From assembly GCA_030681265.1 (NCBI GenBank), contig JAUXXD010000137.1, positions 1 to 50,702 on the forward strand: a stretch of DNA of 50,702 nt, given 5' to 3'. The notes beneath the pieces were generated by a model that was given only the letters and a program-made list of their open reading frames with translations, was not told the DNA's origin and ran no database searches. Positions 16,888-49,500 of this stretch are shown piece by piece. This DNA is from Candidatus Didemnitutus sp. GTDB taxonomy: Bacteria; Verrucomicrobiota; Verrucomicrobiia; Opitutales; Opitutaceae. Made by a program: the position numbers and the translations under genes. Each line of letters begins with the position of its first letter. The first letter of the stretch is position 1.

Positions 16888-17618
16888 GCGCGGCCCGCGA
16901 GAGCGAGCGCGCGCGGGAAGAGCACGTTGTTTTCCTTGTGCACGTGGCGCTGCAGATCAGTGGCGAATTCCGCGAGACCAGCCAGGAGAGCGCGATGCGT
17001 GTTGCACGCGTTGGTGTCGGGCTGGAAGCCGTCGGTCAATTCGCCGAGGCGGGCCGTCGCGCGCGTGGCGAATTCGTGTTCTTCTTCCATTTGACGAATC
17101 GGATTGGCGATAGAGCCGCAATGGAAGTCGTTGGCGACGCCAGCTTCGAGTTCGCGCACGAGCGGGAAAAGGATGCGCTCCTCTTTCGCCATGTGGGCGA
17201 ACATTTCATCGGCCAACAGCGTGGTGGTTTCGCTGACTTCGCGGAGGCGTTCGTCGCGCCAGGAGTGTTTGCGCGCGACGCGGTCGGCCATCTCAACGAG
17301 CCGCGGCAATTCGGTTTTCACATAAACGTGATGCGTGGTCTCGATGTGGTCGGCGAGTTGCGCGAGGGAAAGTTGATTGGGATCGATGCCTGGCGTGTTC
17401 GTGGCACTGGTCACCGCCTCGATTAATTCGGCATGCACGACGGCGGGTTCGTGTCCGTAGGCGCGGCACGCTTCGGTGAGTGCGCGTTTGCCGCCGCAGC
17501 AGTAATTGATGCCGAGGCGCTCGAAGACGCGGGCCAGCAGCGGATAATCGATGACGATTTGGCCGACGGTGGTTTCGACGGTGAAGGGAGGAGCGGCGTG
17601 GAGGCTCGGTGTGGACAT
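16884..17618 (-). CDS. ric: Iron-sulfur cluster repair di-iron protein RIC (YtfE/ScdA)
   Basis: 244-residue cytosolic di-iron protein that helps restore nitrosatively or oxidatively damaged Fe-S clusters. The N-terminal ScdA_N/DUF542 domain carries GINYCCGGKRALTEAC (Cys40-Cys41). The hemerythrin-like domain follows with the His/Glu ligand segments HIETTHHVYVKTELPRL, MFAHMAKEERILFPL, MEEEHEFATRA and HVHKENNVLFPRAL. Met at 17618 is the family start; the 23 upstream residues are Arg-rich and unlikely to be translated. A symmetric TTGA-N6-TCAA site sits 34 bases before the ATG, fitting control by a CRP/FNR/Dnr-type regulator. Confidence 0.92.
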   Translation of the reverse strand: MSTPSLHAAPPFTVETTVGQIVIDYPLLARVFERLGINYCCGGKRALTEACRAYGHEPAVVHAELIEAVTSATNTPGIDPNQLSLAQLADHIETTHHVYVKTELPRLVEMADRVARKHSWRDERLREVSETTTLLADEMFAHMAKEERILFPLVRELEAGVANDFHCGSIANPIRQMEEEHEFATRATARLGELTDGFQPDTNACNTHRALLAGLAEFATDLQRHVHKENNVLFPRALALAGRA

Positions 17619-17652
17619 GCGCCGACGATACCGCCAACCGCGCCGCCGTGCC

Positions 17653-17666
17653 TTGAGCCAAGTCAA
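17653..17666 (-). promoter_or_regulatory. CRP/FNR-superfamily type operator upstream of ric
   Basis: Half-sites TTGA and TCAA separated by six bases (TTGAGCCAAGTCAA), extended outward by CC and GG into an 18-base near-palindrome (17651-17668). It lies 34 bases upstream of the ric ATG. FNR/Dnr/Nnr regulators recognise TTGAT-N4-ATCAA-like sites, and ric/ytfE genes are commonly controlled by NO- or oxygen-responsive members. The regulator is not in this window. Confidence 0.65.
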
Positions 17667-17717
17667 GGGAACGCGAGGGCCGCACACGGTGTTTGGGGTT
17701 GCGGGTGACCAAGCGGT

Positions 17718-17742
17718 CCACTCGCTGGCGCTCGCGGCTACA
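17718..17742. repeat. REP-like element, copy 1 of 3
   Basis: Core CTCGCTGGCGCTCGCGGCTA followed by CA. It shares the CTCGCTGGYGCTC..GCTAC core with copies at 39148-39170 and 41324-41346. It lies in the divergent gap between ric and a small lipoprotein gene. Confidence 0.75.
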
Positions 17743-17811
17743 GGAGGGGGGCGGTTTTATGGAGTTGCGAGTCGGACTCTCTGGGATAAATTTGCGACAA
17801 CCTCCTTCTCC

Positions 17812-18159
17812 GTGAAAACAACCTTCGCCCTCCTTCTTCCCGCTGTTGTTGCTGTTGGTCTCTTGACTGGTTGCGGCACGCGTTCCACTGAAACCCGCGG
17901 CACGAATCCCGGACACCCGGGTGCCGCGGTCGGTTACGCGGTAGGAAACACCGCTGGCGCGGTCACTGGTTCGGTGGTCGGCGCCGTGGCGGCCGGGGCC
18001 GAAGGTATGGCGGATGCCGTGAAGGCGCCGTTCAACAACGAGCGTCGCTATGTGCGCAAGTGGCGCACGGAAACAACCTCCGATGGCCGCACGATTCAAG
18101 TGCCTTACGAAGTCGAGGTCGACGCGCATGGACGCGAGATCGTGCCGAAGTCCAACTAA
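17812..18159 (+). CDS. Small glycine-rich lipoprotein
   Basis: 115 residues from a GTG start. Signal VKTTFALLLPAVVAVGLL with lipobox LTGC (Cys21). A Gly/Ala-rich stretch (GAAVGYAVGNTAGAVTGSVV) resembles glycine-zipper segments of outer-membrane lipoproteins. The C-terminus is charged and ends with SDGRTIQVPYEVEVDAHGRE. No named family recognised. Upstream are the REP-like copy and a 65-base leader. Confidence 0.72.
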   Translation: MKTTFALLLPAVVAVGLLTGCGTRSTETRGTNPGHPGAAVGYAVGNTAGAVTGSVVGAVAAGAEGMADAVKAPFNNERRYVRKWRTETTSDGRTIQVPYEVEVDAHGREIVPKSN

Positions 18160-18280: not shown

Positions 18281-18310
18281 TAAAAACGGCGTCCCTTGTG
18301 AGGACGCCGT
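18281..18310 (-). terminator. Rho-independent terminator of the lpoB operon
   Basis: Perfect nine-pair stem ACGGCGTCC / GGACGCCGT with a seven-base loop. Read on the minus strand it is followed by TTTTTA. It lies 25 bases beyond the lpoB stop. Confidence 0.88.
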
Positions 18311-18334: not shown

Positions 18335-18937
18335 TTACCAACCGACGCCGGGGCGCTTGGTTTGTTTGGCGATTTGACGCTCTTCTTCCCAGACGGTGAG
18401 GCCGGTTTTGACTTCGACGAGCGACATCTGGAACGCGTAGGTGTTCTGCGTCATCTTGCCCGAGCGATCGGTCTGCTGGATGAGCTTTGCGTAGAGTGTG
18501 TAGTCGGGCAAAAGTGTTTTTTGCTTCTTACCGGACTGCATCTCTTCCATTTCCGCGGCTTCGCTGGCGACCACGGCGCGTTCGCCGAGACCGAGCGTGT
18601 TGGTGATTGCGATCTTGCCGGTCTGCGTGAGCGCGACGCGGATTTTTTTGATCAAAAGATCCGTATCGACCATCAACTGCGTGTTGTTGATCACGCGGTC
18701 GACCGCGAGGATGGCTGGCACGCGCGGGGCGCGTTCGAGCGCGTTGGACGAGAGCAGCGAACCCGTGAGTTGGTCGGCGGCGTTGGCCCAGTCCTGCGAG
18801 TTGATCGCGGAGGTGTTGAGGGCGTCGGGGCCGCGGGCGTCGACGGTGCGCGTCTCTTCGGTCGTGGTGCAACCGGTGAAGAGGAGCGAGGCCGAGAGCG
18901 CAGCGGCGCCAAGGAGCTTAGTGGGGGAATGTTTCAT
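18335..18937 (-). CDS. lpoB: Penicillin-binding protein activator LpoB
   Basis: 200-residue outer-membrane lipoprotein of the LpoB (COG3417) family; in E. coli LpoB reaches through the murein to activate PBP1b. Lipobox LFTGC (Cys23). A short Thr/Glu/Ala linker follows, then the compact domain with RVPAILAVDRVINNTQLMVD, LLIKKIRVALTQTGK, LLPDYTLYAKLIQQ and QMSLVEVKTGLTVWEEERQI. It is last in a five-gene leftward operon, 12 bases after ycfL, ending at a strong terminator. The linker is short, so span across the murein may depend on its partners. Confidence 0.9.
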   Translation of the reverse strand: MKHSPTKLLGAAALSASLLFTGCTTTEETRTVDARGPDALNTSAINSQDWANAADQLTGSLLSSNALERAPRVPAILAVDRVINNTQLMVDTDLLIKKIRVALTQTGKIAITNTLGLGERAVVASEAAEMEEMQSGKKQKTLLPDYTLYAKLIQQTDRSGKMTQNTYAFQMSLVEVKTGLTVWEEERQIAKQTKRPGVGW

Positions 18938-18949
18938 GATGAATTGGGT

Positions 18950-19369
18950 TTATTCGCGGAATTTGAGGCGGAAATCAACGGCGCGCGGGTTGATGGATAC
19001 CGTGGAGATGGTGGTGCTTTCGCGGCCCTGTAGCGCGAGGCCCTTCCAGGTTTCGTTGGGTGAGTCGATCGACATACCGTCGGCGTCAACCCACTCGAAC
19101 TTGTAGTTCAGGTGACGCGCGTTGTTTTTCAGATTTTCCACCGTCGCTTGGATCTTGAGCAAGTTGCCCGAGACCTTCGACTCGTTGATGGCGACGACGC
19201 GAAACGTGCCGGCGAGGGTGTTGTCGGTGATGACACGTTTGTCGGAGATGTAGTTGGGCGAGGCTTGGGACTCGGCTCGCTCATACGTGTTCACGTTGGT
19301 GGCGCAGCCGGAAAGCAGCACCACCGCAACGAGCGCAACGCCGGCGAGCGTGGAACGATAAGATTTCAT
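18950..19369 (-). CDS. ycfL: YcfL family lipoprotein
   Basis: 139 residues, DUF1425/YcfL family. Lipobox LLSGC (Cys22). Mature part is a beta-sandwich-like sequence (INESKVSGNLLKIQATVENL, HLNYKFEWVDADGMSI, final VDFRLKFRE). YcfL lies next to lpoB in E. coli, as here. Function unknown. It begins five bases after the COG3014 gene stop, so the two are co-translated or co-transcribed. Confidence 0.87.
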   Translation of the reverse strand: MKSYRSTLAGVALVAVVLLSGCATNVNTYERAESQASPNYISDKRVITDNTLAGTFRVVAINESKVSGNLLKIQATVENLKNNARHLNYKFEWVDADGMSIDSPNETWKGLALQGRESTTISTVSINPRAVDFRLKFRE

Positions 19370-19374
19370 AGATT

Positions 19375-20955
19375 TTATTTTAGTGTGAATTGCGACACGT
19401 GCAACGGCGCGTTGTTCGCGGTGGATTTGACGTAGATGACATTTACTGAACCTTCATCGATGGTGATGGTCTGCTGGGTGGCGCCGGCGGAAAGGACGAG
19501 TTGCCGGTTTTCCGGCGTGGCGAAGCGGGCGTATTGGAACTCCTTCGGGAGCGACGTCCACGTGCGGGTGTCGGCGATGTTGGTGGCCGCGTTGATGCCG
19601 CCCATGATCAATCCGGCGGCCAAGCCGGCGAACATGCCGCCTTGATCTTCGACCTGCTTTTGCACGGTGGCTTGGATGATGGCCTTCGTTGCGGTGGTGA
19701 TGAGCGTCTTGGTCACGATCGACGGCCACTCGTTCTTGAAGTCGTTGGCGACGACGCTGTCCATGCTCGCGACGGTGGAAGTGACAAACGTTTGTTCGCC
19801 AATACCGACGGAGAGCGTGCCGATGTAGTCGCTGTTGAATTCGAGCTTCGGGAACGCGGCGCCGACGTAGGCGAGGCGGCTGGTGACGAGGAAGGTTGGG
19901 ATATCCACGCGAATTTGGCCGCGCAAGGGCGCCGTGCCGGTTTCGAAAATGACGTAGGTGACGCCTTCGAGGGTCTTGCCTTCGGCAGCGTTGGCGGCGG
20001 CTTCGAGGTCGGCGCGGATGAAGTTGTTTTCCGGCACCATTTGCGCGACGCGTTCGAAGGACTTGCGGCCGCGTTCCCAATCGTCGCCCGTTTCACCGAG
20101 AGCGGTGAAGAACAAGCCGTCGAGGAACACCGCGAAAGGATTCACGTAGTCGCCATAGGGTTTCATCGGAGCGAGCGAAGCGTCGAGGGCGGCCTGGAGG
20201 GCGGGACCGGTGCGGGCATCGTCCATCGCACGATTGCTATCGTAAGAGGCGGATTTGCCGGACTCGTCCTTCAATTCGCCGCGAGCGGCCTTGGCGGAAT
20301 CTTCCTGGAGGGCGGCGATGCGTTTTTCGTTGTCGGCCACGGCGTCGCGTTGGCGTTGGAGCGAGCGGTTGAGTTCGACGCGGGCCTTATCCTTGTCGCC
20401 TAGTTCGATGTAGTTGAGCGCCTTGTAGGCGTTCATCATCACTTTATCGTAGGAGCGGCCGCGGTAGGGCAGGTTGGCCTGATTGGTCATCATGGCGCCG
20501 ACCTCGGAGCCGACTTTGAGTTTGGCCTGTTCTTCCCAGTAGTTGACCCGTTCTTCGGCTTTGTCGAAGGCCTCGTTGGAGCGGCGCAAGTAATGTTCGG
20601 CGACTTCGCGGTCGGTCGGGGGTGGCGGGGGTGGCGGGGGTTCTTCGCCTTTTTTCACCGGCGCTGGAGGCGGCAATATGCTCGGCACGGTGGCTGGGTC
20701 AGCGAGGCCCGCGGTGCGCAGGGTGGCGCCTTGTTCAAAACGGAAAACCAGTTCGTCCTTCGAGCCGGCCGATTTATTGGCCTGTTGATCGATCTGCGGC
20801 ACGGCCTGCATCAAACTGCCGCTGCGTGACGATTGGGTGAAGGCTTTGGTGTCTTGTTCGTAGGTTTGGCAGCCGGCAACCAGCAGTGTAAGCACGAGGG
20901 CGCCCGCGATTTGGGTGATCCGGCGCGGGTTCAGCGTCGCATGGGTTTGGTTCAT
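19375..20955 (-). CDS. COG3014 family lipoprotein
   Basis: 526 residues. Signal and lipobox VLTLLVAGC (Cys29); the Met at 20955 is chosen because it begins the signal sequence. The sequence has a proline-rich linker with eight consecutive prolines (GEEPPPPPPPPTDRE), a helical TPR-like region (SYDKVMMNAYKALNYIELGD; LERSLQRQ-like NRSLQRQRDAVADNEKRI), a beta-rich middle and a hydrophobic FAGLAAGLIMGGINAA segment. COG3014 genes commonly accompany ycfL and lpoB. The eight-proline run probably needs EF-P for translation. Confidence 0.85.
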   Translation of the reverse strand: MNQTHATLNPRRITQIAGALVLTLLVAGCQTYEQDTKAFTQSSRSGSLMQAVPQIDQQANKSAGSKDELVFRFEQGATLRTAGLADPATVPSILPPPAPVKKGEEPPPPPPPPTDREVAEHYLRRSNEAFDKAEERVNYWEEQAKLKVGSEVGAMMTNQANLPYRGRSYDKVMMNAYKALNYIELGDKDKARVELNRSLQRQRDAVADNEKRIAALQEDSAKAARGELKDESGKSASYDSNRAMDDARTGPALQAALDASLAPMKPYGDYVNPFAVFLDGLFFTALGETGDDWERGRKSFERVAQMVPENNFIRADLEAAANAAEGKTLEGVTYVIFETGTAPLRGQIRVDIPTFLVTSRLAYVGAAFPKLEFNSDYIGTLSVGIGEQTFVTSTVASMDSVVANDFKNEWPSIVTKTLITTATKAIIQATVQKQVEDQGGMFAGLAAGLIMGGINAATNIADTRTWTSLPKEFQYARFATPENRQLVLSAGATQQTITIDEGSVNVIYVKSTANNAPLHVSQFTLK

Positions 20956-20998
20956 AATGGGGTATCTTTTCTGTGTGTTGGTGGGTTTACGGAAAAAA

Positions 20999-21883
20999 TC
21001 AGCCTTCGTCCTCGGCGACGACGGCGCGGACAATGGCGCCGCTGGCGATGCCGCGATCTTCGATGATTTCGGCTTGGGAATTTTGCGGCGTGACGCGCGT
21101 CACGCGGACTTTGCCGACGTAGACTTCTTCGCGGCTGCGCTCGCCCGTATCGGGATCGACGAGTTCGTCGCCCAGAGCGAAGACTTCCCAAATTTGGCCG
21201 ACGGAGACTCCGGCTTGGTCGTTGCGGTTGATCGTCACGATGGCGTCGCGTTTGCCGATGATGCGGGCTGGATAAATGGCGTCGGTGGCGCGGCCGGAAA
21301 TTTTCTGGGCGATTTCGCGGACGGCCTGGGAGAGCAACTCGTCGCTGGCTTCGCCGATGCGGACGGACGTGTTTTCCGAACGGTTTTCGGAGTCGCGTTG
21401 CAGGACGGAGAAGTTGGCGCTGGCGATGGAACGCTGCGTGGCGACTTCGGTGATCTTGGCGACGGCGGAGATTTCGATGGCGCGCGCGCGAATCGTCTTG
21501 CCGAGGGCGGCGAGGCGGCGCTCTTCCGTGCGGTCGTTGAAGTTGTCGACGCGGATGGTGAGAATGTAGTCGGCTTGGTTGAAGCTGAACGCAGCACCGG
21601 CCGCGGCGGCTTCAGTCGCGAGGGCATCGACGTCGGCGCGCTCGATCATTTCGAAGCGGCGTGTGTTGAGCAGGCGGTCGTGCACTTGGGACTCGAGGCT
21701 TTGCAGAATACTATCGAGTGACAGGTGCACGCCCTGCGCGGCCATGCGTTTGGCGACGGCGGGATTGGCGGTGATTTTAGTCACGGCTAGTTTCTTTTTG
21801 CCGGGGGCTTCTTGTGCGAAGCCCAGACCGGCGGAGAGTGAGGTGGCCACGACGGCGGCGAGGAGGATTCGTCCGATTTTCAT
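20999..21883 (-). CDS. CsgG-like exported protein
   Basis: 294 residues with a signal peptide (MKIGRILLAAVVATSLSAGL to about Ala23) and no lipobox. The N-terminal half matches the CsgG/LpoB-like fold: KKLAVTKITANPAVAKRM, LESQVHDRLLNTRRFEMIER, DVDALATEAAAAG, then YILTIRVDNFNDR. The C-terminal part adds a small beta domain (VTINRNDQAGVSVGQIWEVF; VYVGKVRVTRVTPQNSQAEI), as found in flagellar-assembly T-like or pore-associated envelope proteins. Lacking the lipid anchor of real CsgG, it is unlikely to be a curli pore. Second gene of the lpoB operon. Confidence 0.7.
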   Translation of the reverse strand: MKIGRILLAAVVATSLSAGLGFAQEAPGKKKLAVTKITANPAVAKRMAAQGVHLSLDSILQSLESQVHDRLLNTRRFEMIERADVDALATEAAAAGAAFSFNQADYILTIRVDNFNDRTEERRLAALGKTIRARAIEISAVAKITEVATQRSIASANFSVLQRDSENRSENTSVRIGEASDELLSQAVREIAQKISGRATDAIYPARIIGKRDAIVTINRNDQAGVSVGQIWEVFALGDELVDPDTGERSREEVYVGKVRVTRVTPQNSQAEIIEDRGIASGAIVRAVVAEDEG

Positions 21884-21918
21884 AGGAGAGTAAGTTGGGG
21901 TTGCGGCGGTGGAGCGGC

Positions 21919-23130
21919 TTAGCGACCGAAGAGCGAGCGCTCGTTGATGGTGATGCCTTCCTTGGTATTGACGTTCACTTTGAAGCCGCTGTTTTCGAGG
22001 GCCTTGGCCTCGCCTTCGAGGACCTTGACCTCGGCATCCGTGAGTTTCGCGCCGTTCTTGAGGTTGTTGATGAAAGCGGTGGCGTCCTTCCAGCGGGCGT
22101 AGCCGGCGTCGCTCATCTCGAGGGTGACATTGAGTTTTTGGCCGTTGGCGAAATTGACGGTGCGTTCCCATGGCTTGAAGCCTTCGCGCACGACACGGAG
22201 TTTGCTCAGGCCCGCTTTCACTTGAATCGTGCCCGGGGCCGTGCCCATGGCGATGCCGTCGATTTCCACCGTGGCGGAGAGGGCGGCGACTTTGAATTTG
22301 CTTTGGGAAATGGTGAGGGTGTTTTCCGCGCCGATGCGCACATCGGGGATGTAGAGGTCGGCGACTTCGGTGGAGAGTTCGACGTTGACGAGGGCGGCGG
22401 CGGCGTTCGGCGTGCCGAGGCGGCCGCGATCGATGGCGCGCTTGAGGCTGGTGGCAACTTTGCCGGCGGCTTCATCGAGGAGGCCGTTGTAGGCGTCGGA
22501 GCGTTCGTTGCTGGAGGCGGCGGATTGTTGCACGAGCATGTTCGTGCGGACGGTGTCTGCGGCGAGGCTGGCGCCGGTGGTGCCGTCGAGAATCTTGTAG
22601 GTGACGCGGGCGATGCGTTCTTCGTTCACCGCTTTGACGCCGTAGGCATCGACGGTGCGTTGGTTGGCTTCGAGGCCGGAGATGGAAACTTGGAGCACGT
22701 AGTCGGCGCCCATGGTTTGTGAGAGGCGCACGGCGGAGGTGCTGTCGGCGAATTGCGCGTCGAGGTCGGTCGCCTTGGCGCCGGGCGCGAGTGCGCTGAC
22801 GGCGTTGAGGGTGGTTTCGGCGGAGATGACGCGCAGGCCGAGGTCGGTGACGCGGGAGGTGATGAAATCTTCGAGCGCCCCTAATTGCGCGTCGCCGCTC
22901 TGGCCGGCGCGATTGGTGACGACGATCGCCACTTGGTATTGGGCGGGCTTCGTTTGCACTTGGCGCACCGTCGCGGTGGTGGTGACGGTGTGCTCTTGGA
23001 TCGTCTTGCCGTCCTGTTCGAAGGTGCGGCTCTTGACGTCAGCTTGGGCGGGGGATTGGGCGAGCGCGCCAGTGCTCAACACGAGAGCGGTCAGCGCGGA
23101 AATGAAGAATCGAGGAATGGTAGTGTTCAT
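21919..23130 (-). CDS. Exported PEGA-domain protein
   Basis: 403 residues, first gene of the lpoB operon. Signal peptide ends near TGALA (Ala24). Residues about 60-265 look like a CsgG/LpoB-type domain (QVAIVVTNRAGQ, EDFITSRVTDLGLRVIS, MGADYVLQVSISGLE). Residues about 285-335 are a PEGA beta domain (TVEIDGIAMGTAPGTIQVKA, LRVVREGFKPWERTVNF). A helical tail follows. PEGA domains are surface or cell-wall associated modules. With its neighbours it likely forms an envelope assembly linked to murein synthesis. A 253-base gap upstream should hold the promoter. Confidence 0.75.
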   Translation of the reverse strand: MNTTIPRFFISALTALVLSTGALAQSPAQADVKSRTFEQDGKTIQEHTVTTTATVRQVQTKPAQYQVAIVVTNRAGQSGDAQLGALEDFITSRVTDLGLRVISAETTLNAVSALAPGAKATDLDAQFADSTSAVRLSQTMGADYVLQVSISGLEANQRTVDAYGVKAVNEERIARVTYKILDGTTGASLAADTVRTNMLVQQSAASSNERSDAYNGLLDEAAGKVATSLKRAIDRGRLGTPNAAAALVNVELSTEVADLYIPDVRIGAENTLTISQSKFKVAALSATVEIDGIAMGTAPGTIQVKAGLSKLRVVREGFKPWERTVNFANGQKLNVTLEMSDAGYARWKDATAFINNLKNGAKLTDAEVKVLEGEAKALENSGFKVNVNTKEGITINERSLFGR

Positions 23131-30965: not shown

Positions 30966-31988
30966 ATGCAGCTCCGCTTTTCTCCCCTCACGCTGGAGTT
31001 GAGGCACGCGTTCACGCTCGCCGCGAGTTCGCGCACCACGACGCCGGCGATGTTGGTCGAGTTGGAACACGACGGCCTCACCGGCTATGGTGAGGCCGCG
31101 ATGCCTCCCTACCTCGGTGACACACAATCCACCGCCACCGCGTTCTTCGGTTGCCTCAATGCGTCGCGCTGGACCGATCCGTTTCGCACCGAAGAAATCC
31201 TCGCCGAAATCGACGCGCTCGTTCCCGGCAACACCGCCGCCAAGGCCGCGCTCGACATCGCACTGCACGATTGGATCGGCAAAAAACTCGGGCTGCCGCT
31301 GCATAAACTGTGGGGCTTGGACGCCGCGCGTGCGCCGGTCACTTCGTTCACCATCGGCATCGCTACGCCGGAAATTGTCCGCCAGAAAACCCGCGAGGCA
31401 GAGCCGTATCACATGCTCAAGGTGAAGCTGGGCCGCGACACCGACCAACAGTTGATCGAGACGATTCGTGAAATCACCGACAAGCCGCTGCTGGTGGACG
31501 CCAACCAGGGCTGGACCGACCGCGAGGACGCCCTGCGCATGAGCGAATGGCTCGCCGCGCGCGGCGTCGTGTTGATCGAACAACCCTTTGCCAAGACCGC
31601 GCTCGACGACACCGCGTGGTTGCGCGAGCGCAGCCCGTTGCCGTTGATCGCCGACGAAAGCGCGCAACGCCTCACCGACGTCGCACGGCTCCGCGGCGTG
31701 TTCGACGGCATCAACATCAAGCTGATGAAATGCACCGGCCTGCGCGAAGCCCACCGCATGATCACCGCCGCGCGCGCGCTCGAGATGAAAGTGATGCTCG
31801 GCTGCATGACCGAAACGTCCTGCGCGATTTCCGCCGCCGCGCAACTGGCGCCGCTCGCCGACTGGGCCGACCTCGACGGCGCACTCCTGATCACAAACGA
31901 TCCGTTCGACGGCGCCACCTTCGACAACGGCCGCATCCTTCCCTCCGCTCGCCCCGGCATCGGCGTGAGGCGTCGCGTTACTTCCTAA
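30966..31988 (+). CDS. ycjG: L-Ala-D/L-Glu (dipeptide) epimerase
   Basis: 340-residue enolase-superfamily enzyme of the muconate-lactonizing subgroup. Catalytic lysines K152-x-K154 in MLKVKLGRD and the second acid/base Lys252 in INIKLMKCTG; metal ligands Asp178 (DAN), Glu205 (IEQP) and Asp230 (ADES). The later segment WADLDGALLITNDPFDG has the DxD pattern typical of Ala-Glu epimerases. The enzyme converts L-Ala-D-Glu from recycled murein to L-Ala-L-Glu for degradation. First of three tightly packed genes with nagZ and an amidase, which supports this role. Other dipeptide specificity is possible. Confidence 0.88.
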   Translation: MQLRFSPLTLELRHAFTLAASSRTTTPAMLVELEHDGLTGYGEAAMPPYLGDTQSTATAFFGCLNASRWTDPFRTEEILAEIDALVPGNTAAKAALDIALHDWIGKKLGLPLHKLWGLDAARAPVTSFTIGIATPEIVRQKTREAEPYHMLKVKLGRDTDQQLIETIREITDKPLLVDANQGWTDREDALRMSEWLAARGVVLIEQPFAKTALDDTAWLRERSPLPLIADESAQRLTDVARLRGVFDGINIKLMKCTGLREAHRMITAARALEMKVMLGCMTETSCAISAAAQLAPLADWADLDGALLITNDPFDGATFDNGRILPSARPGIGVRRRVTS

Positions 31989-33065
31989 ATGACGACCGCT
32001 CCTCCAGCCGCCACACGGCACGAAAAAATCGGCCAATTGCTGATCGTCGGTTTCCGCGGCTGCACCCCGGCCGAGTGCGGGCTCGTCGTGCGGGACATCC
32101 AAACCCACCACATCGGCGGCGTGATTTTCTTCGATCAGGAAATGAGCGGCGGCACAATCGACAGCGCCTTCCGTCGTCGCAACATCGAGTCGCCGACGCA
32201 AGTGCGCGAACTCATCACTCATCTGCAAACGCAGGCGCGCGTGCCGCTACTCGTTGCGGTTGATCAGGAGGGGGGGCGCGTTAACCGCCTCAAGCCAGCC
32301 TACGGATTTACTGCGAGTATGTCGCACGAGGAACTCGGCGCGCGCAACGTGCTCGCGGGAACGCATCGCGCCGCCGCGGCCATGGCCGACACGCTCGCGA
32401 CCGCGGGCTTCAATCTCAACCTTGCGCCCGTCGTCGATCTCGACGCCAATCCCGCCAACCCGATCATCAAGGGCAAAGCGCGCGCGTTCTCGGCCGATCC
32501 GGAGATCGTCGCGCGGCACGCGGGCGAATTCGTGCGCGCGCACCGCGAGCGCGGCGTCGCGTGTTGCGCAAAACATTTTCCCGGCCACGGCAGCGCTGCG
32601 GGCGATACGCATCTCGGACTCGTCGATGTCTCCGCTACATGGCACCAGCGCGAACTCGTCCCGTTCCAACAACTGATCGCCGCCGATCTCTGCGACGTGA
32701 TCATGAGTGCGCACGTTTTCAATTCGCGCCTCGACCCGGAGCGCCCCGCGACGCTGTCGCGTGCGGTCATCACGGATTTGCTGCGCGGCCAGCTCGGTTT
32801 TCGCGGCGTGGTGGTGAGTGACGATCTGGAAATGAAAGCGATCTCGGCTCACTACGGCATGGACGAAGCGATCGTGGCCGCACTCAACGCCGGCGTCGAT
32901 GTGCTCTGTTTCGGCAACAACATGAGTTACGATCCCGACATCGCGCCGCGCGTGATTGCTGCGGTGTTGCGCGCGGTGGAAAGTGGGCGCGTCACCGAAG
33001 CGCGACTCGACGAAGCTTATCAACGCGTGTTAGCTCTCAAGCGGCGGCTCGGTTTGCTCACCTGA
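31989..33065 (+). CDS. nagZ: Beta-N-acetylglucosaminidase NagZ (GH3)
   Basis: 358-residue glycoside hydrolase family 3 enzyme, single-domain and without a signal peptide, as cytosolic NagZ. It removes GlcNAc from 1,6-anhydroMurNAc-peptides. VDQEGGRVNRLKP (92-104), the catalytic loop KHFPGHGSAAGDTHLGL (Lys195-Leu211, with the Asp-His acid/base dyad) and nucleophile Asp278 in VVVSDDLEMKAI are all intact. The ATG abuts the stop codon of the epimerase with no gap, implying translational coupling. Confidence 0.94.
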   Translation: MTTAPPAATRHEKIGQLLIVGFRGCTPAECGLVVRDIQTHHIGGVIFFDQEMSGGTIDSAFRRRNIESPTQVRELITHLQTQARVPLLVAVDQEGGRVNRLKPAYGFTASMSHEELGARNVLAGTHRAAAAMADTLATAGFNLNLAPVVDLDANPANPIIKGKARAFSADPEIVARHAGEFVRAHRERGVACCAKHFPGHGSAAGDTHLGLVDVSATWHQRELVPFQQLIAADLCDVIMSAHVFNSRLDPERPATLSRAVITDLLRGQLGFRGVVVSDDLEMKAISAHYGMDEAIVAALNAGVDVLCFGNNMSYDPDIAPRVIAAVLRAVESGRVTEARLDEAYQRVLALKRRLGLLT

Positions 33066-33084
33066 GTCTGCCGCTTTCTTCGTG

Positions 33085-34086
33085 ATGTTTTCTCCCCGTT
33101 TTTTTTCCACGCTCGGCGTCTTCGTCGCTTTCGCGCTGTTGTCCGGTTGCGCCACACCACCCGCCGCGCCGCTCTCGCGGCAGGGCGAAGAAATTGTCGT
33201 GGCCGGACAATTTTTTCCGATCGGCACGCCCGTCGTCACTTGGATGGATCCGGGCGGTTACGATGCGTATCGCGTGGAGCGGCGCTTCGCGCCGTTGGCG
33301 GAAAGCGGTTGGGACAAGACGGCGGCGGCGCGGCCCGACATTAAGTCGCCCAACCGCTACGGTCTGCGCGCGGTGAATCTCTCGAATGAGGAAATCTCCC
33401 GCGTGCGCGGCGGTGGCTGGGATCTGCCGTTGTTGCGGCGCGTGGTCGATCAATTCGTCCTCCACTACGATGCCTGCGGCATCAGCAAGCAGTGTTTCAA
33501 TATTCTCCACGACCACCGCGGGCTCTCGGTGCACTTCATGTTGGATCTCGACGGCACGATTTACCAAACGCTCGATGTGAAAGAGCGCGCGTGGCACGCC
33601 TCGACGTCCAACGACCGCTCCGTCGGTGTCGAGATCGCCAACATCGGCGCCTACGCGCCGGGCGATTTGTCGGTGTTGCAGTCGTGGTATCGCCGCGACG
33701 CCAAAGGCGGCACGGAAATCACCATTCCGGAAAAACTCGGCGACCCGCTGTTCCGCGTGAAAGGTTTCAAAGGCCGCCCGATTCGCCCCGAGCCGGTGAA
33801 GGGCAACATCCAGGCGACCGACCTCGTGCAATACGACCTCACGCCCGAGCAATACGCCGCATTGATCAAACTCACCGCCGCGCTCAGCAAAATCTTTCCG
33901 AAGATCAAACTCGACTACCCGCGCGACGCCAAAAGCCGACTCATCACGCACAAACTTCCCGACGCGCAACTTGCCGCGTTTCAGGGCGTCATCGGCCACT
34001 ACCACATTCAGACGAACAAGACCGACCCCGGCCCCGCGCTACAGTGGGACAAAATCATCAACGGCGCCCGCGCGCTGCGAAAGTAG
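33085..34086 (+). CDS. N-acetylmuramoyl-L-alanine amidase lipoprotein, AmiD-type
   Basis: 333-residue Amidase_2 (PGRP-like) enzyme cleaving the MurNAc-L-Ala bond. Signal with lipobox ALLSGC (Cys22) anchors it to a membrane on the periplasmic face, like E. coli AmiD. Zinc and catalytic segments: FVLHYDACG, VHFMLDLDGTIYQTLD with RAWHAST, and IGHYHIQTNKTDPG. Unlike cytosolic AmpD this copy is exported, so it should act before uptake. Start ATG 33085; a GTG directly before it is possible. It follows nagZ by 19 bases. Ends before a palindromic element and a convergent operon. Confidence 0.9.
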   Translation: MFSPRFFSTLGVFVAFALLSGCATPPAAPLSRQGEEIVVAGQFFPIGTPVVTWMDPGGYDAYRVERRFAPLAESGWDKTAAARPDIKSPNRYGLRAVNLSNEEISRVRGGGWDLPLLRRVVDQFVLHYDACGISKQCFNILHDHRGLSVHFMLDLDGTIYQTLDVKERAWHASTSNDRSVGVEIANIGAYAPGDLSVLQSWYRRDAKGGTEITIPEKLGDPLFRVKGFKGRPIRPEPVKGNIQATDLVQYDLTPEQYAALIKLTAALSKIFPKIKLDYPRDAKSRLITHKLPDAQLAAFQGVIGHYHIQTNKTDPGPALQWDKIINGARALRK

Positions 34087-34120
34087 TTCCGGCGTCGATC
34101 TCCGCCGCGCGCACCGCCTG

Positions 34121-34139
34121 AAAAACGCAGTGTGCTGCG
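34121..34139 (-). terminator. Rho-independent terminator of the murQ-yddW-ampG operon
   Basis: Stem CGCAG / CTGCG (34126-34139) with a four-base loop. On the minus strand it is followed by TTTTT (34125-34121). It lies 48 bases beyond the ampG stop. Confidence 0.7.
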
Positions 34140-34143
34140 GCCA

Positions 34144-34168
34144 GTTTGTAACGTATTATATTACAAAC
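34144..34168. repeat. Palindromic intergenic element, copy 2 of 2
   Basis: Exact reverse complement of 1456-1480: arms GTTTGTAA and TTACAAAC around a nine-base AT-rich centre. It lies 19 bases after the ampG stop and just before that operon's terminator. In both copies the element follows a stop codon closely and in the same orientation relative to the gene it follows. Confidence 0.85.
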
Positions 34169-34187
34169 GGGCTTTGAGCGATCGGGC

Positions 34188-35474
34188 TCAGGCTTTCTTG
34201 CCGAACGCAGGATCGATTTTGACGAAGGCGCAGGCGGCGAACGACGGGATCGTGCACGCCATCACCCAAAGAAAGAAATTCTGGTAACCGAGTTGTTCTT
34301 GTATCCAACCCGCCGCCATGCCGGGCAACATCATGCCGAGCGCCATGAAGCCGGTGCAAATCGCGTAGTGCGCAGTTTTGTGTTCGCCTTCGGCAAACAT
34401 GATCATCGTGAGCAAGTAGGCCGCGAAACCGAAGCCGTAACCGAATTGCTCGACCGCCAGCGCCGCACCAATCACGGCGACCGCACTCGGTTGCCACCAC
34501 GCGAGGGCGACGAAGATGAGGTTCGGCACGTTCATTGCAAAAATCATCGGCCACAGCAGCCGCTTGAGTCCGTAACACGAAATCACGTAACCACCGAGCA
34601 ATCCGCCGCCGGTGAGTGCGAGCACGCCGATGGTGCCGTAGGCGAGTCCGACCTGTTGCGTGCTCAAGGCGAGTCCGCCGACGTCGCGTCCATCGAGCAG
34701 GAACGGCGTGACGAGTTTCAGCAGTTGCGACTCCGCGAAGCGGTAAAGCAACAGGAAGCCGAGCATGACGCCGAGGCCGGGCTTGCGAAAAAATGCGCCG
34801 AACACCGCGACAAAATCCGCCATGAGCCGACCGCGTTGACGCACCGCGTGATCGGTCGGCGGCTGCGGCAGCACCAACGCATGATAGAGGCCCGCGACGA
34901 CCGCGAGGCCTGCGAGCAGTCCGAACACCAGCGTCCATGCCCGCGCCACGTCGCCCGTGTAATCTTGGAGATAACCCGCGAGATAAACGAGGCCGCCCTG
35001 CCCCGCGATCATCGCCAGTCGGAAAAACGTGCTGCGCACGCCGACGAACGCAGCCTGCTGGTGCGCGGGCAGCGCGAGCATGTAGAAGCCATCAGCCGCG
35101 ATGTCGTGCGTGGCGGAGCTGAACGCCAGCAACCAAAACATGGCGAGCGTCAGTTGGAAAAAGTGCGGGGCGGGAATCGTCAACGCCACCAATGCGAACG
35201 CCGCGCCGATGGCGAGTTGCAGCGAGACGATCCAGAAACGTTTCGTGCGAAACAAATCCACCACCGGCGACCACAACGGCTTGATCACCCACGGCAGGTA
35301 GAGCCAGCTCGTATAGAGCGCGATGTCGGTGTTGGAGAGTTTGAGATTCTTATACATGACGACCGAGAGCGTCATCACGACCACGTAGGGAATGCCCTGG
35401 CTGAAGTAGAGCGTCGGAATCCAACTCCATGCGCGGGCGGCATTGGCCGGTGGAGGAACAGGGGATGCGTTCAT
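34188..35474 (-). CDS. ampG: AmpG-like MFS permease
   Basis: 428-residue permease with about 12 membrane helices. The N-terminal SWIPTLYFSQGIPYVVVMTL and LYLPWVIKPLWSPVVDL follow the AmpG family pattern. Expected role is proton-driven import of GlcNAc-anhydroMurNAc (peptides) from periplasm to cytosol. It is last in a leftward operon after murQ and a DigH/YddW-like gene; its ATG overlaps the previous stop by four bases (ATGA). Substrate assignment leans strongly on this murein-recycling context. Confidence 0.85.
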   Translation of the reverse strand: MNASPVPPPANAARAWSWIPTLYFSQGIPYVVVMTLSVVMYKNLKLSNTDIALYTSWLYLPWVIKPLWSPVVDLFRTKRFWIVSLQLAIGAAFALVALTIPAPHFFQLTLAMFWLLAFSSATHDIAADGFYMLALPAHQQAAFVGVRSTFFRLAMIAGQGGLVYLAGYLQDYTGDVARAWTLVFGLLAGLAVVAGLYHALVLPQPPTDHAVRQRGRLMADFVAVFGAFFRKPGLGVMLGFLLLYRFAESQLLKLVTPFLLDGRDVGGLALSTQQVGLAYGTIGVLALTGGGLLGGYVISCYGLKRLLWPMIFAMNVPNLIFVALAWWQPSAVAVIGAALAVEQFGYGFGFAAYLLTMIMFAEGEHKTAHYAICTGFMALGMMLPGMAAGWIQEQLGYQNFFLWVMACTIPSFAACAFVKIDPAFGKKA

Positions 35475-37021
35475 GGCGAGCGGCGGGTGGAATTGAGCAA
35501 GAGTGTTGTGCGCGGACTTTCGTGGCCGAGGCGATCAACGGCACTCACGACCATCGCGTCGATCGGCCCGTGCGCGTCGTCGGCGGAAAGAGAAATGAAA
35601 TTTTCGTGCGCGGGTTGCGTGCGAAAGCGCCAGTGGTTTCCGTGGCGAAACCAAATCGCCAACTGCGTCGCGTTCTGCGGAGCGCGCACCACGACGCGAG
35701 TGGAGCTGTCGCGTTGGAGTTGCGGCGCGGCGAGCGACGACCGTCCGAGCCACGGCGACGCGGGCACGAGCGCCGGTTGCGCGTAAACGCCGCGCGCGAG
35801 TTGCGTGGCGATGCCCTGCCGGTCTTGCAGCAACGCGATCATGCTGAAGTGTGCGTGGCCACTCGCGGCGGGATGCGCGCGCGCGAGTGCGACCTGATGG
35901 GTAATTTCTTCGGGCCGCCACGATTGCGGTGTGTCGTTGATCGAGCTGGTGAAGAGCCCGGGCCAGAGATGGCGTTGGTGCGGATTTTGTTTTGCCCAGT
36001 AATCGAGCAACACGGGGAACGATTGCGCGGTGCGTTCGGCGGGCCAGTAGAGTTGCGGCACGAGATAATCCAGCCAGCCGCGCTCCAACCACAATTCGAC
36101 GTTGGCGTAGAGATCGTCGTATTGGCTGAAGCCCGCGATGCCGGGCGGACGCCGGTCTGGCCGACCGATGCCGAACGGACTGATGCCGAAACGCACCCAC
36201 GGTTTGATTTCGTGAATGGCGCGATACATCTGCGCGACGAGATGATCGACGTGGCTGCGGCGCCAGTCGGCCCGCGCGAGTTGCCCGCCGCCGGCGCGGT
36301 AACGTTGCCACGCGGGTTCGTCGGGAAAATCCACGGTAGTTTTGCTGACTTCGCTGCTGGGCTTGGCCTTGGCCGCGAGTGGAGCGGCGATCGGATACGG
36401 ATAAAAATAGTCGTCGATGTGCACGCCATCGATGTCGTAGCGCCGCACGACATCGCGGATGACCGCAAGCGTGCGCTCAACGGCGATCGGTTCCGCGGGA
36501 TCCATCCACAGTGCCGCGCCGTAGGTTTTCACCGCCGCCGGATGCGTTTTGGAAAGATGCGTGGCGGCGACGGGAGATTTTGCTTCGTGGTGGCGCGCGC
36601 GGTAGGGATTGAACCACGCGTGCAACTCCAGTCCGCGCCGGTGCGCCTCCTCGATCCACACTTGCAGCGGATCGTAGAAAGGAACGGGAGCGCGACCCTG
36701 GGCGCCGGTGAGATATTCGGACCAGGGCTCCAACGCGGAGGCGTAAAGCGCGTCGGCGGACGGCCGCACTTGGAGGATGATCGCGTTGAGATTGAGCGAG
36801 CGGGCGCGGTCGAGGATGGCGGTGATTTCGGCGCGTTGTTGCGCGACGGGCAAACCGGGCTGACTCGGCCAATCGATGTTGGCGACCGTGGCCACCCACG
36901 CGGCGCGCAATTCGCGCGGCGTCGGCGGCGCTTCGTTGGGTGTGCGGTCTGCCGTCGCGCAACCGCCGAGCACGGCAAGCGCGAGCAGGATCGCAACAAG
37001 GGGAAACGCAACGCGCCTCAT
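35471..37021 (-). CDS. DigH/YddW-like glycoside hydrolase lipoprotein
   Basis: 516 residues. Lipobox AVLGGC (Cys21). The (beta/alpha)8 GH10-like domain of the DUF187/YddW family is clear: RAAWVATVANIDWPS, LNAIILQVRPSADALY, LHAWFNPYRARHH, YDIDGVHIDDYFYPYP (the family's acidic pair) and LVPQLYWPAE. A C-terminal beta domain (about 430-516) could bind carbohydrate. E. coli YddW, renamed DigH, cleaves glycan strands denuded of peptides, so this enzyme may do so at the outer membrane. It overlaps murQ and ampG by four bases on each side (ATGA). Confidence 0.88.
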   Translation of the reverse strand: MRRVAFPLVAILLALAVLGGCATADRTPNEAPPTPRELRAAWVATVANIDWPSQPGLPVAQQRAEITAILDRARSLNLNAIILQVRPSADALYASALEPWSEYLTGAQGRAPVPFYDPLQVWIEEAHRRGLELHAWFNPYRARHHEAKSPVAATHLSKTHPAAVKTYGAALWMDPAEPIAVERTLAVIRDVVRRYDIDGVHIDDYFYPYPIAAPLAAKAKPSSEVSKTTVDFPDEPAWQRYRAGGGQLARADWRRSHVDHLVAQMYRAIHEIKPWVRFGISPFGIGRPDRRPPGIAGFSQYDDLYANVELWLERGWLDYLVPQLYWPAERTAQSFPVLLDYWAKQNPHQRHLWPGLFTSSINDTPQSWRPEEITHQVALARAHPAASGHAHFSMIALLQDRQGIATQLARGVYAQPALVPASPWLGRSSLAAPQLQRDSSTRVVVRAPQNATQLAIWFRHGNHWRFRTQPAHENFISLSADDAHGPIDAMVVSAVDRLGHESPRTTLLLNSTRRSP

Positions 37022-37920
37022 GGGTGCGTGGTGCGATCCTTCTCGCCGAGCGCGCGGCGCAAGTCGCCGTTCACGGCGTCGAGGGCCGCTTGGGCGGCGG
37101 CGGCGGGGAGATTGCGGCGCAGAGAGACGATGGCGGTCTTCACGCGGTGCTGGCACGCCGCGAGGGCGGCGCGGGCGGCGGACTCATCGGCGCCCGTGAC
37201 GCGCATGGTGAGCGCGACGGTGCGGCGGTGGAGTTTCGCGTTGGTAGGGAGAACATCGACCATCAGGTTGCCGTAAACCTTGTGCAGCCGCACCATCAGC
37301 GCACTGGAGAGGGTATTGAGCGCGATTTTTTGTGCGGTGCCCGCCTTGAGGCGCGTGCTGCCGGAAATTGTTTCGCTGCCCGTGTCAAGGGTGAGGCCAA
37401 TCTCGGCGTCGCGCGCGAGCGGTGAACCGGGATTGTTGGCCAGGCCGATGGTGAGGGCGCCGCTTTCTTTTGCCGCCGCCAACGCGCCGAGCACATAGGG
37501 CGTGGCACCGGACGCGGCGAGCAGCAGCACGACATCATGACGCGTCGGAGTCAGCGCGCGCAGATCGGCGGCGCCTTGCGCGGAGTCGTCTTCGGCACCC
37601 TCGACGGCTTCGAACATCGCGCTTTGACCGCCCGCGAGAAGTCCGAGCGCGCGTTCCTTGGGCCAGGAAAAAGTGGGAAACAATTCGACGCTGTCCAACA
37701 CGCCTAGACGACCGGACGTGCCGGCTCCGACGTAGATCAGGCGTCCACCGGCGGCGAGGCGCGGCACGGCCGCCTCGACGGCGCGCGCTAATTGCGGCGC
37801 GGCGGCATGCACCACGGCAGCGGCGTGTTGTTGATCGTCGGTGAACGCGCGGACGAGGTCCGTGGTCTCGTAGCGATCAAGGTCGGGATGGCGATCACTG
37901 GGGGTTTCGGTGGGCAACAT
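37018..37920 (-). CDS. murQ: N-acetylmuramic acid 6-phosphate etherase MurQ
   Basis: 300-residue SIS-domain enzyme converting MurNAc-6-P to GlcNAc-6-P and D-lactate. SIS motifs RLIYVGAGTSGRLGVLDSVE, FEAVEGAEDDSAQGAADL, VLLLAASGATPYVLGA, and the signature GSTRLKAGTAQKIALNTLSS with KVYGNLMVDVLPTNAKL are all present. Length equals the E. coli enzyme. Met at 37920 is the family start. It is first in the murQ-yddW-ampG operon and is divergent from anmK across 89 bases. AnmK makes its substrate, so a shared promoter region makes sense. Confidence 0.95.
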   Translation of the reverse strand: MLPTETPSDRHPDLDRYETTDLVRAFTDDQQHAAAVVHAAAPQLARAVEAAVPRLAAGGRLIYVGAGTSGRLGVLDSVELFPTFSWPKERALGLLAGGQSAMFEAVEGAEDDSAQGAADLRALTPTRHDVVLLLAASGATPYVLGALAAAKESGALTIGLANNPGSPLARDAEIGLTLDTGSETISGSTRLKAGTAQKIALNTLSSALMVRLHKVYGNLMVDVLPTNAKLHRRTVALTMRVTGADESAARAALAACQHRVKTAIVSLRRNLPAAAAQAALDAVNGDLRRALGEKDRTTHP

Positions 37921-38009
37921 CGGCGGAAGGAGATTCGTGCGTTGCGGGCCGCGATTCAATCGTGCATTGCCAGCGGAGTGGAAAATATCCGCCAACGAGG
38001 AAAACAGGG

Positions 38010-39143
38010 ATGAGCGCCGCGCTGCCTGCGGGGGATGGGTTTTTCATCGGCGTGATGTCGGGCACGAGCATCGACGGCATCGACGCGGTGTTGGTGCGCG
38101 GCGGAAACCGGCTGGAATTGGTGCGCGGGCACACGCGGACGTTTCCGGCGGAGTTGCGGGCGGAACTGCGCCGGTTGTGCACGCCGGGCGAAAACGAGAT
38201 CGAGCGGCTCGGCCGCGCCGATGTGGCGGTGGGGCGCGAGTTCGCGCAGACGATCCGGGAATTATTGGAAACCGCGGGCGTGAGGGCGGCGGACGTGCGC
38301 GCCATCGGGAGTCACGGCCAAACAATCCGGCACCGCCCGGCGGGGGACACGGCGTTTACGTTGCAGATTGGCGATCCCAACGTGATCGCAGCGCAGACCG
38401 GCATTGCGGTGGTCGCGGATTTTCGGCGCAAGGATTTGGCTCTCGGCGGCCAAGGCGCGCCACTCGTGCCGGCGTTTCACGACGCGCTGTTTCGCAAGAA
38501 TGGGTGCGAGCGCGTGATTTTGAATCTCGGTGGAATTGCCAACCTCACGGTGTTGCCCGGCGAGGAACAAAGTCCGGTGCGCGGTTTCGATACCGGGCCG
38601 GGCAACACGTTGCTCGATGCGTGGTGTCGCCGTGTCAAGGGTGAGCCGATGGATCGTGCCGGGGCGTTGGCGGCGCGCGGCGCGGTGATTGCCGCGTTGT
38701 TGGAACGGATGCTGGCCGATCCTTATTTCGCACAACATGCGCCGAAGAGCACGGGGCCGGAGTATTTTTCGTTGGCGTGGCTGGATGAGTGCCTGGTCGC
38801 CTTTGCGGGCGTCAGTGACGCGGAGGTGCAAGCGACCTTGGTGGCGCTCACGGCGCAAAGCGCGGCGGCGGCGATTGCGGATGCGACGAACGGGAGGGCC
38901 GTGGAAATTTTCGTCTGCGGCGGCGGGGTGCACAATCCGGTGTTGCTGGGCGCGCTGCGCAATCGGTTGCAAAATTCAACCGTGGCAACGACGGCGGCGC
39001 TGGGCGTCGATCCTGGTTGGGTCGAGGCAATGGCGTTTGCGTGGCTGGCGCAGCAACGCGTGTTGCAGCGACCGGGCAATTGCCCAGCGGTCACCGGCGC
39101 GACGCGACCGGCGGTGTTGGGCGGAATGTGGCTGCCGATGTGA
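38010..39143 (+). CDS. anmK: Anhydro-N-acetylmuramic acid kinase AnmK
   Basis: 377-residue kinase that opens 1,6-anhydroMurNAc and phosphorylates it to MurNAc-6-P. Motifs: GVMSGTSIDGIDAVLVRGG, SHGQTIRHRP, LQIGDPNVIAAQTGI, DFRRKDLALGGQGAPLVPAF with catalytic Asp, LNLGGIANLTVLPG and DTGPGNTLLDAW. ATG 38010 follows a purine-rich GAGGAAAACAGGG. A GTG 48 bases upstream is in frame but less likely. Divergent to murQ and convergent to the M20 peptidase gene. Confidence 0.95.
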   Translation: MSAALPAGDGFFIGVMSGTSIDGIDAVLVRGGNRLELVRGHTRTFPAELRAELRRLCTPGENEIERLGRADVAVGREFAQTIRELLETAGVRAADVRAIGSHGQTIRHRPAGDTAFTLQIGDPNVIAAQTGIAVVADFRRKDLALGGQGAPLVPAFHDALFRKNGCERVILNLGGIANLTVLPGEEQSPVRGFDTGPGNTLLDAWCRRVKGEPMDRAGALAARGAVIAALLERMLADPYFAQHAPKSTGPEYFSLAWLDECLVAFAGVSDAEVQATLVALTAQSAAAAIADATNGRAVEIFVCGGGVHNPVLLGALRNRLQNSTVATTAALGVDPGWVEAMAFAWLAQQRVLQRPGNCPAVTGATRPAVLGGMWLPM

Positions 39144-49370: not shown

Positions 49371-49500
49371 GCGGGGTGGCGTGGAAAATGCCCGCGCGCC
49401 GGCGTGTTGCAACAGCAGCGTTGGGGTTTGGTCACAGTGGGCACCGAGAATATCCCCGGGTTCACGGAAGGCAGAACCGCCCGCCGGTTGCGCGCGCCGC

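Follow-up and report, generated by a model that had tools for sequence, protein, structure and literature searches.

Comparison with Described LpoB Systems

Textbooks present LpoB as the outer-membrane switch for a class A penicillin-binding protein (PBP), and the UB2H domain is the dock of Escherichia coli PBP1b. The E. coli LpoB is described as approximately 145 Å long and as reaching PBP1b through the wall (PMC9593243, PMC6220978). The protein has also been described as confined to enterobacteria and as having evolved recently together with the UB2H dock (PMC3060616, with a cut-off of 100 bits in the figure legend). In this study, a stretch of 50,702 nucleotides from Candidatus Didemnitutus sp. 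(Verrucomicrobiota, Opitutaceae; contig JAUXXD010000137.1), called the window below, was analysed. It carries a five-gene operon (g1 to g5) whose last two genes encode YcfL-family and LpoB-family lipoproteins. The window belongs, as contig C93, to a genome (G000) of 3.56 Mb and 98.9% completeness. The operon proved real and conserved as a unit, and LpoB in this organism probably does something other than switching on a class A synthase.

The features of the operon are the following:
21919–23130, minus strand: g1, secreted protein of 403 amino acids (aa) with a TolB-N/CsgG/FlgT-middle-like domain, a PEGA domain, and a helical tail (Pfam and model)
22411–22947, minus strand: g1 residues 62–240, TolB-N/CsgG-like fold (model with an overall predicted local distance difference test score, pLDDT, of 65)
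22114–22275, minus strand: g1 residues 286–339, PEGA domain (PF08308, E = 4.4e-11, over the cut-off)
20999–21883, minus strand: g2, 294 aa (start corrected), secreted two-domain protein like the middle and C-terminal domains of FlgT (model and Foldseek)
21269–21802, minus strand: g2 residues 28–205, TolB-N/CsgG-like fold (model)
21014–21268, minus strand: g2 residues 206–290, C-terminal beta domain aligned to the C-terminal part of FlgT (the 8z5n and 3w1e matches reach residues 289–292)
19375–20955, minus strand: g3, lipoprotein of 526 aa that accompanies LpoB across the phylum, with a weak tetratricopeptide repeat (TPR) signal (lipobox by eye and profiles)
18950–19369, minus strand: g4, YcfL-family lipoprotein (DUF1425) of 139 aa (Pfam)
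18335–18937, minus strand: g5, 200-aa lipoprotein of the LpoB family, short linker, conserved C-terminal tail that ends in GW (Pfam)
18371–18790, minus strand: LpoB domain of g5 (Pfam)
18791–18868, minus strand: g5 linker from Cys23 to the LpoB domain (27 residues from the Cys to the conserved Trp)
18286–18310, minus strand: intrinsic-terminator-like hairpin 3′ of the operon, with 10 pairs, 7 of them G-C, and a T tail

A preliminary description made from the sequence had listed five leftward genes with short gaps, and the coordinates (18335–23130, all on the minus strand) and the gaps from g1 to g5 (35, 43, 5, and 12 bases) were verified. It had also named YcfL and LpoB, and both names hold against Pfam. 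g4 matched DUF1425 (PF07233) at 2e-22 with 79.4 bits against a curated cut-off of 28.3, and g5 matched LpoB (PF13036) at 7e-24 with 84.8 bits against a curated cut-off of 22.3. Against the NCBIfam equivalog TIGR02722, g5 reached 95.7 bits, below the cut-off of 110.55. An LpoB profile built without the E. coli row had the solved LpoB (2mii) as its top PDB match (7e-8), and our own LpoB and YcfL profiles rated the E. coli proteins weakly (0.0016 and 0.04 at Z 4000). A lipobox cysteine was seen by eye in g3, g4, and g5, and ordinary signal peptides in g1 and g2. g3 had no significant Pfam or NCBIfam match, and its name COG3014 comes from the preliminary description alone; the PDB sequence search gave weak TPR matches, the best of them (E = 1.4e-4) to a designed protein. 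The terminator said to close the operon was recovered as the terminator-like hairpin at 18310–18286, which has the most pairs of all scanned sites and lies at the operon end. The scan of both strands gave 12 sites against 9.0 expected from shuffles, and it is therefore weak when taken alone.

In E. coli, YcfL is likewise directly upstream of LpoB, so the enterobacterial linkage of the two genes named in the preliminary description holds, and both families are shared with the window. No g3-like gene is annotated beside the E. coli pair, the comparison being confined to that locus. Further differences from E. coli are that no class A PBP is detectable here, that LpoB carries an extra conserved tail at its C-terminus, and that two FlgT/CsgG-fold genes are neighbours. 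The linker between the lipidated Cys and the conserved Trp is 60 residues in E. coli LpoB but 27 in the window LpoB, which thus lacks a long periplasm-spanning tether. This speaks against the earlier proposal of a complex that spans the envelope.

The short linker recurred in every measured LpoB frame other than that of E. coli. It measured 25–27 residues in 20 of 20 rows of set A4 (E. coli excepted) and in 17 of 17 rows of set A7, the two sets overlapping. The 80 LpoB frames analysed, some of them included twice, comprised E. coli, 3 unmapped frames, and 76 measured frames; the linkers of the latter were 24–29 residues in a first type of LpoB-g3-YcfL gene trio and 34–36 residues in a second type. 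The A7 LpoB proteins have a conserved C-terminal tail (G-W or G-F end) beyond the stop of E. coli LpoB, and second-type LpoB proteins end otherwise. In 19 Opitutaceae-type rows, LpoB was 64–94% identical to the window protein.

Class A PBPs and Wall-Synthesis Genes

The window genome showed no match to PF00912 (GT51), and the same search was positive in 10 of 14 control genomes. Two PF00905 transpeptidase genes were found, both with a class B dimerisation domain and without GT51, together with two SEDS (shape, elongation, division, and sporulation) genes. There was no UB2H match in this genome. With GT51 undetected and both transpeptidases of class B, LpoB has no detectable class A PBP as its target, and a PBP1b-type client with GT51 and UB2H was not found. 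Judged by the genes recovered, LpoB cannot work in the window organism by its known mechanism, and the regulation of murein synthesis proposed for the operon is not supported in the form known for LpoB.

The lack of class A PBPs in several bacteria of the Planctomycetes-Verrucomicrobia-Chlamydiae (PVC) group has already been published (PMC8406291). As described there, those bacteria, like the window organism, have genes for the cell wall but no class A PBP; a text search of the main text of that paper returned neither "Lpo" nor "Opitut". A Lacunisphaera strain of the Opitutaceae is reported to have sacculi and diaminopimelic acid (DAP) (PMC5303756).

The phylum sample consisted of 194 genomes. 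LpoB was matched in 129 of them, 127 over the cut-off, and GT51 in 62. Both were present in 34 genomes, LpoB only in 95, GT51 only in 28, and neither in 37 (odds ratio 0.47, p = 0.02, kinship ignored). Within the order of the window organism, GT51 was found in 0 of 34 genomes and LpoB in 21 (weakly in G158, 1.7e-4). Given the 34 genomes with both LpoB and GT51, a class A synthase may be the client of LpoB in other parts of the phylum. In family f7 of the sample (Akkermansia, a guess), genomes with several GT51 matches were seen and none of them was listed for LpoB, which is opposite to the pattern of the window's order.

UB2H (PF14814) matches were found in 66 of the 194 genomes, 16 over the cut-off. 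They made up 76 rows, 21 of which came from GT51 genomes and none of which lay within 3 kb of a GT51 match. These matches were rejected as a possible LpoB dock, the four top matches being of the UvrB or Mfd type. Because the Pfam UB2H model matches UvrB and Mfd, a UB2H match alone is no proof of PBP1b.

Pairing of LpoB and g3 Across the Phylum

With the broad profile A6, the g3 family was found in 117 of the 194 genomes. LpoB and the g3 family occurred together in 115 genomes (Fisher p = 2e-34, kinship ignored), 87 of which lack GT51. g3 was alone in two genomes (G014, G120) and LpoB in 14, 10 of them by matches weaker than 1e-7; one of the 14 (G078) has g3-like and YcfL-like frames beside LpoB by local profiles. 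Positions were listed for 109 genomes, and LpoB and g3 were within 4 kb of each other in 102. The remaining seven had them on different contigs (six genomes) or 12 kb apart (G052). Five of the six genomes without listed positions (G088, G099, G143, G169, G181) had LpoB and g3 in one stretch.

In 12 further LpoB loci, LpoB, g3-like, and YcfL-like frames were present in 10. The exceptions were L093, without g3 in the piece examined, and L094, without YcfL. The second trio type of the family matches less strongly and has its genes in different orders (LpoB-g3-YcfL in L084, L085, L087, and L089). Both trio types stand in tandem in G018 (L090), the second type (LpoB-g3-YcfL) approximately 1.4 kb downstream of the five-gene type. 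In L092 (G009), a YcfL frame lies between two LpoB frames, and the g2 profile has two matches in a frame upstream of g3.

Conservation of the Five-Gene Cluster

Twenty-one relatives of the locus were found via g3, all in Opitutaceae or other Verrucomicrobia metagenome-assembled genomes. All five genes were present in the same order, g1-g2-g3-YcfL-LpoB, in 18 of the 21 loci, including L004 and L014, in which g5 runs off the contig. The grouping is therefore not a matter of chance. Two other loci (L017, L018) are cut by the contig end. L021 has g3-YcfL-LpoB without g1-g2, and the PALP gene that flanks the window operon directly precedes the trio there; g1-g2 is therefore a separable block. The PALP flank was present in 4 of the 21 loci; among the other 17, 14 hold at least 2 kb of upstream sequence without PALP and 3 hold less than 2 kb. 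The operon therefore travels without its flank. Conservation across the phylum had been named in the preliminary description as a way of checking its proposal; the five-gene order was conserved among these relatives, and LpoB and g3 occurred jointly in 115 genomes of the phylum.

Among 20 wider loci, a CsgG-fold or PEGA-bearing gene was found near g3 in 12 (L054, L055, L057, L060, L061, L063, L064, L066, L068, L070, L071, L072). The Pfam CsgG model was matched over its cut-off by upstream genes of six of them (L061, L063, L064, L066, L068, L070). In L054 (G010), g1 is located at the operon end, after LpoB.

Predicted Folds of g1 and g2

Sequence profiles placed both leading genes below the curated cut-offs: the FlgT_M match of g1 (5e-6) reached 27.3 bits against 31.2, and the CsgG (PF03783) match of g2 (0.002) reached 17.9 bits against 20.8. 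PDB sequence searches gave no match for g1 and no significant match for g2. The model of g2 (pLDDT 72, predicted template modelling score, pTM, 0.63) showed a TolB-N/CsgG arrangement at residues 28–205 followed by a C-terminal beta domain. The top Foldseek match was FlgT over both domains (8z5n, E = 6.6e-15; 3w1e, E = 7.9e-15), with a poor global superposition in Foldseek (TM 0.38, root-mean-square deviation, rmsd, 12.7). The VIA comparison of g2 gave 2iqi_A (Z 15.3, rmsd 2.9, 139 aligned), 8z5n (Z 13.6, rmsd 11.5, 225 aligned), and CsgG 6lqh_A (Z 12.9, rmsd 4.7, 165 aligned). A g2 homologue in L064 matched FlgT_C at E = 0.008, below the cut-off.

The model of g1 (pLDDT 65, pTM 0.44) showed a TolB-N/CsgG-like fold at approximately residues 62–240. 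The top Foldseek match was again FlgT (8z5n, 3w1e). In VIA, CsgG 6lqh_A (Z 13.8, rmsd 3.7, 154 aligned), PelBC 9h80_A (Z 13.6), and FlgT 3w1e (Z 12.8, rmsd 3.4, 155 aligned) were tied or nearly so. The CsgG/TolB-N fold that had been claimed for the two leading genes is thus present in both models, and its absence, which would have refuted the preliminary description, was not seen. Together with the LpoB profile of g5, the models bear out the earlier count of three LpoB/CsgG-fold-like proteins, taken as the wide LpoB/CsgG/TolB-N class. LpoB entries were absent among the 50 structural matches listed for g1 or g2, so "LpoB-like" refers, for these two proteins, to the wider TolB-N/CsgG fold class.

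FlgT, an H-ring component of Vibrio, is covered by g2 in its middle and C-terminal domains. The alignments begin at FlgT residue 98–119, however, leaving the N-terminal domain of FlgT unmatched, and the distribution of g2 does not track FlgI. The CsgG, PelC, LptE, and DUF330 lipoproteins have in common with the models of g1 and g2 a TolB-N-like fold, but g1 and g2 have no lipobox by eye, and no curlin repeat was found in the window genome.

Possible Function of the Operon

We consider it slightly better than an even bet that the operon encodes an outer-membrane-anchored periplasmic complex that is independent of class A PBPs. The lipoproteins g3, YcfL, and LpoB would form it together with the soluble CsgG/FlgT-fold proteins g1 and g2. 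Such a complex is plausible because three proteins of the fold class occur together and the cluster is conserved. The products of g1–g4 and LpoB would bind one another, and LpoB would remain close under the outer membrane, docking g3, YcfL, and the FlgT/CsgG-fold proteins instead of reaching a synthase through the wall. Outer-membrane or wall maintenance are candidate clients, possibly a SEDS-class B PBP pair. The LpoB-PBP1b pairing of E. coli may then be a later recruitment of one member of the module, with a longer tether.

A broader proposal, which we hold somewhat short of even, is that LpoB is part of an ancient outer-membrane module that works without class A PBPs and is not an enterobacterial PBP1b activator by origin. 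The module would consist of LpoB, the g3 family, and YcfL, often with FlgT/CsgG-fold partners. The E. coli pair would be a late recruitment by means of the longer tether and the UB2H dock. In bacteria without class A PBPs, the module may control SEDS-class B synthases or another envelope machine from the outer membrane. That 129 of the 194 sampled genomes, all from another phylum, carry LpoB-family matches, 95 of them in the absence of GT51, and that the neighbours recur, calls the enterobacterial history of LpoB into question. The LpoB set without class A PBPs is a direct route to asking what LpoB did before PBP1b, and it supplies candidates for envelope control from the outer membrane where SEDS proteins are the only detectable peptidoglycan polymerases. 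Neither the operon nor an LpoB without a class A PBP was met in the listed titles and abstract openings of open-licence papers.

Several observations weigh against an outer-membrane complex independent of class A PBPs. By our own profiles, 8 of the 20 wider loci (L056, L058, L059, L062, L065, L067, L069, L073) have no CsgG-fold or PEGA gene. In the window's order, 13 of 34 genomes lack both LpoB and GT51, and the module is therefore not required for growth there. GT51 is present in 34 LpoB genomes, and the counts are non-independent because genomes of the sample are related. The models of g1 and g2 are of middling confidence (pLDDT 65 and 72), and a FlgT/CsgG fold is no proof of ring formation.

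One alternative is that the complex does regulate murein synthesis, its targets being pairs of a SEDS protein and a class B PBP and not class A PBPs. The window genome offers two transpeptidases and two SEDS genes as possible targets, LpoB regulates peptidoglycan synthesis in E. coli, and sacculi are reported for an Opitutaceae strain (PMC5303756). The short LpoB linker fits this less well, as do the 13 genomes of the order without LpoB and GT51 alike, and neither the window nor any of 53 LpoB loci contained a relative of the SEDS or class B PBP proteins of the window genome (at E 1e-5). We regard this alternative as unlikely, at about one chance in five. Taken literally, the preliminary description has LpoB switching on a class A PBP in the E. 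coli manner. The LpoB-family sequence beside YcfL recalls that system, but with no GT51 found, two class B transpeptidases only, and no UB2H, we give this almost no credence. It is also very improbable that LpoB is a relic left after a recent loss of class A PBPs. Several PVC bacteria do lack such PBPs (PMC8406291), but LpoB stays 64–94% identical in 19 rows with a fixed linker and fixed neighbours, and the loss looks old because none of the 34 genomes of the order has GT51.

The folds of g1 and g2 suggest two further readings, both weak. The CsgG-fold proteins could be a curli-like secretion channel with the lipoproteins as its accessories, in line with the models and with the CsgG Pfam matches over the cut-off in relatives. 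We see little chance of this, as CsgG is a lipoprotein by PDB titles and g1 and g2 have no lipobox by eye, the top Foldseek match is FlgT and not CsgG, and the curlin repeat search, negative in the window genome, was positive only in the E. coli control. A role of the FlgT-like proteins as parts of the flagellar basal-body ring is just as doubtful. Foldseek ranks FlgT (8z5n, 3w1e) first for both g1 and g2, and the window genome has FlgI. Strong g2 matches (E < 1e-28) came from 10 genomes, however, of which five have FlgI and five have no FlgI match, and FlgI occurs without g2 in eight further genomes of the family.

Neighbouring Genes

A peptidoglycan recycling island is located at 30966–39143, starting approximately 8 kb from the operon. 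It comprises an MR/MLE enzyme, a GH3 enzyme (NagZ type), Amidase_2, an MFS transporter, and AnmK, and an S13 carboxypeptidase lies at 47823–49412. The island noted in the preliminary description is genuine, but its suggested coordination with the operon is not supported: the PALP flank recurs in 4 of 21 relatives, and in L021, whose shared flank extends through 6PGD, no island gene was found there or in the 2.9 kb beyond. In L002, L003, and L011, the sequence ends within DnaN.

On the other side of the operon, a small lipoprotein-like gene at 17551–18159 (plus strand) is convergent with it. A frame similar to this gene, often as a short match, was present in 12 of the 21 relatives' loci.

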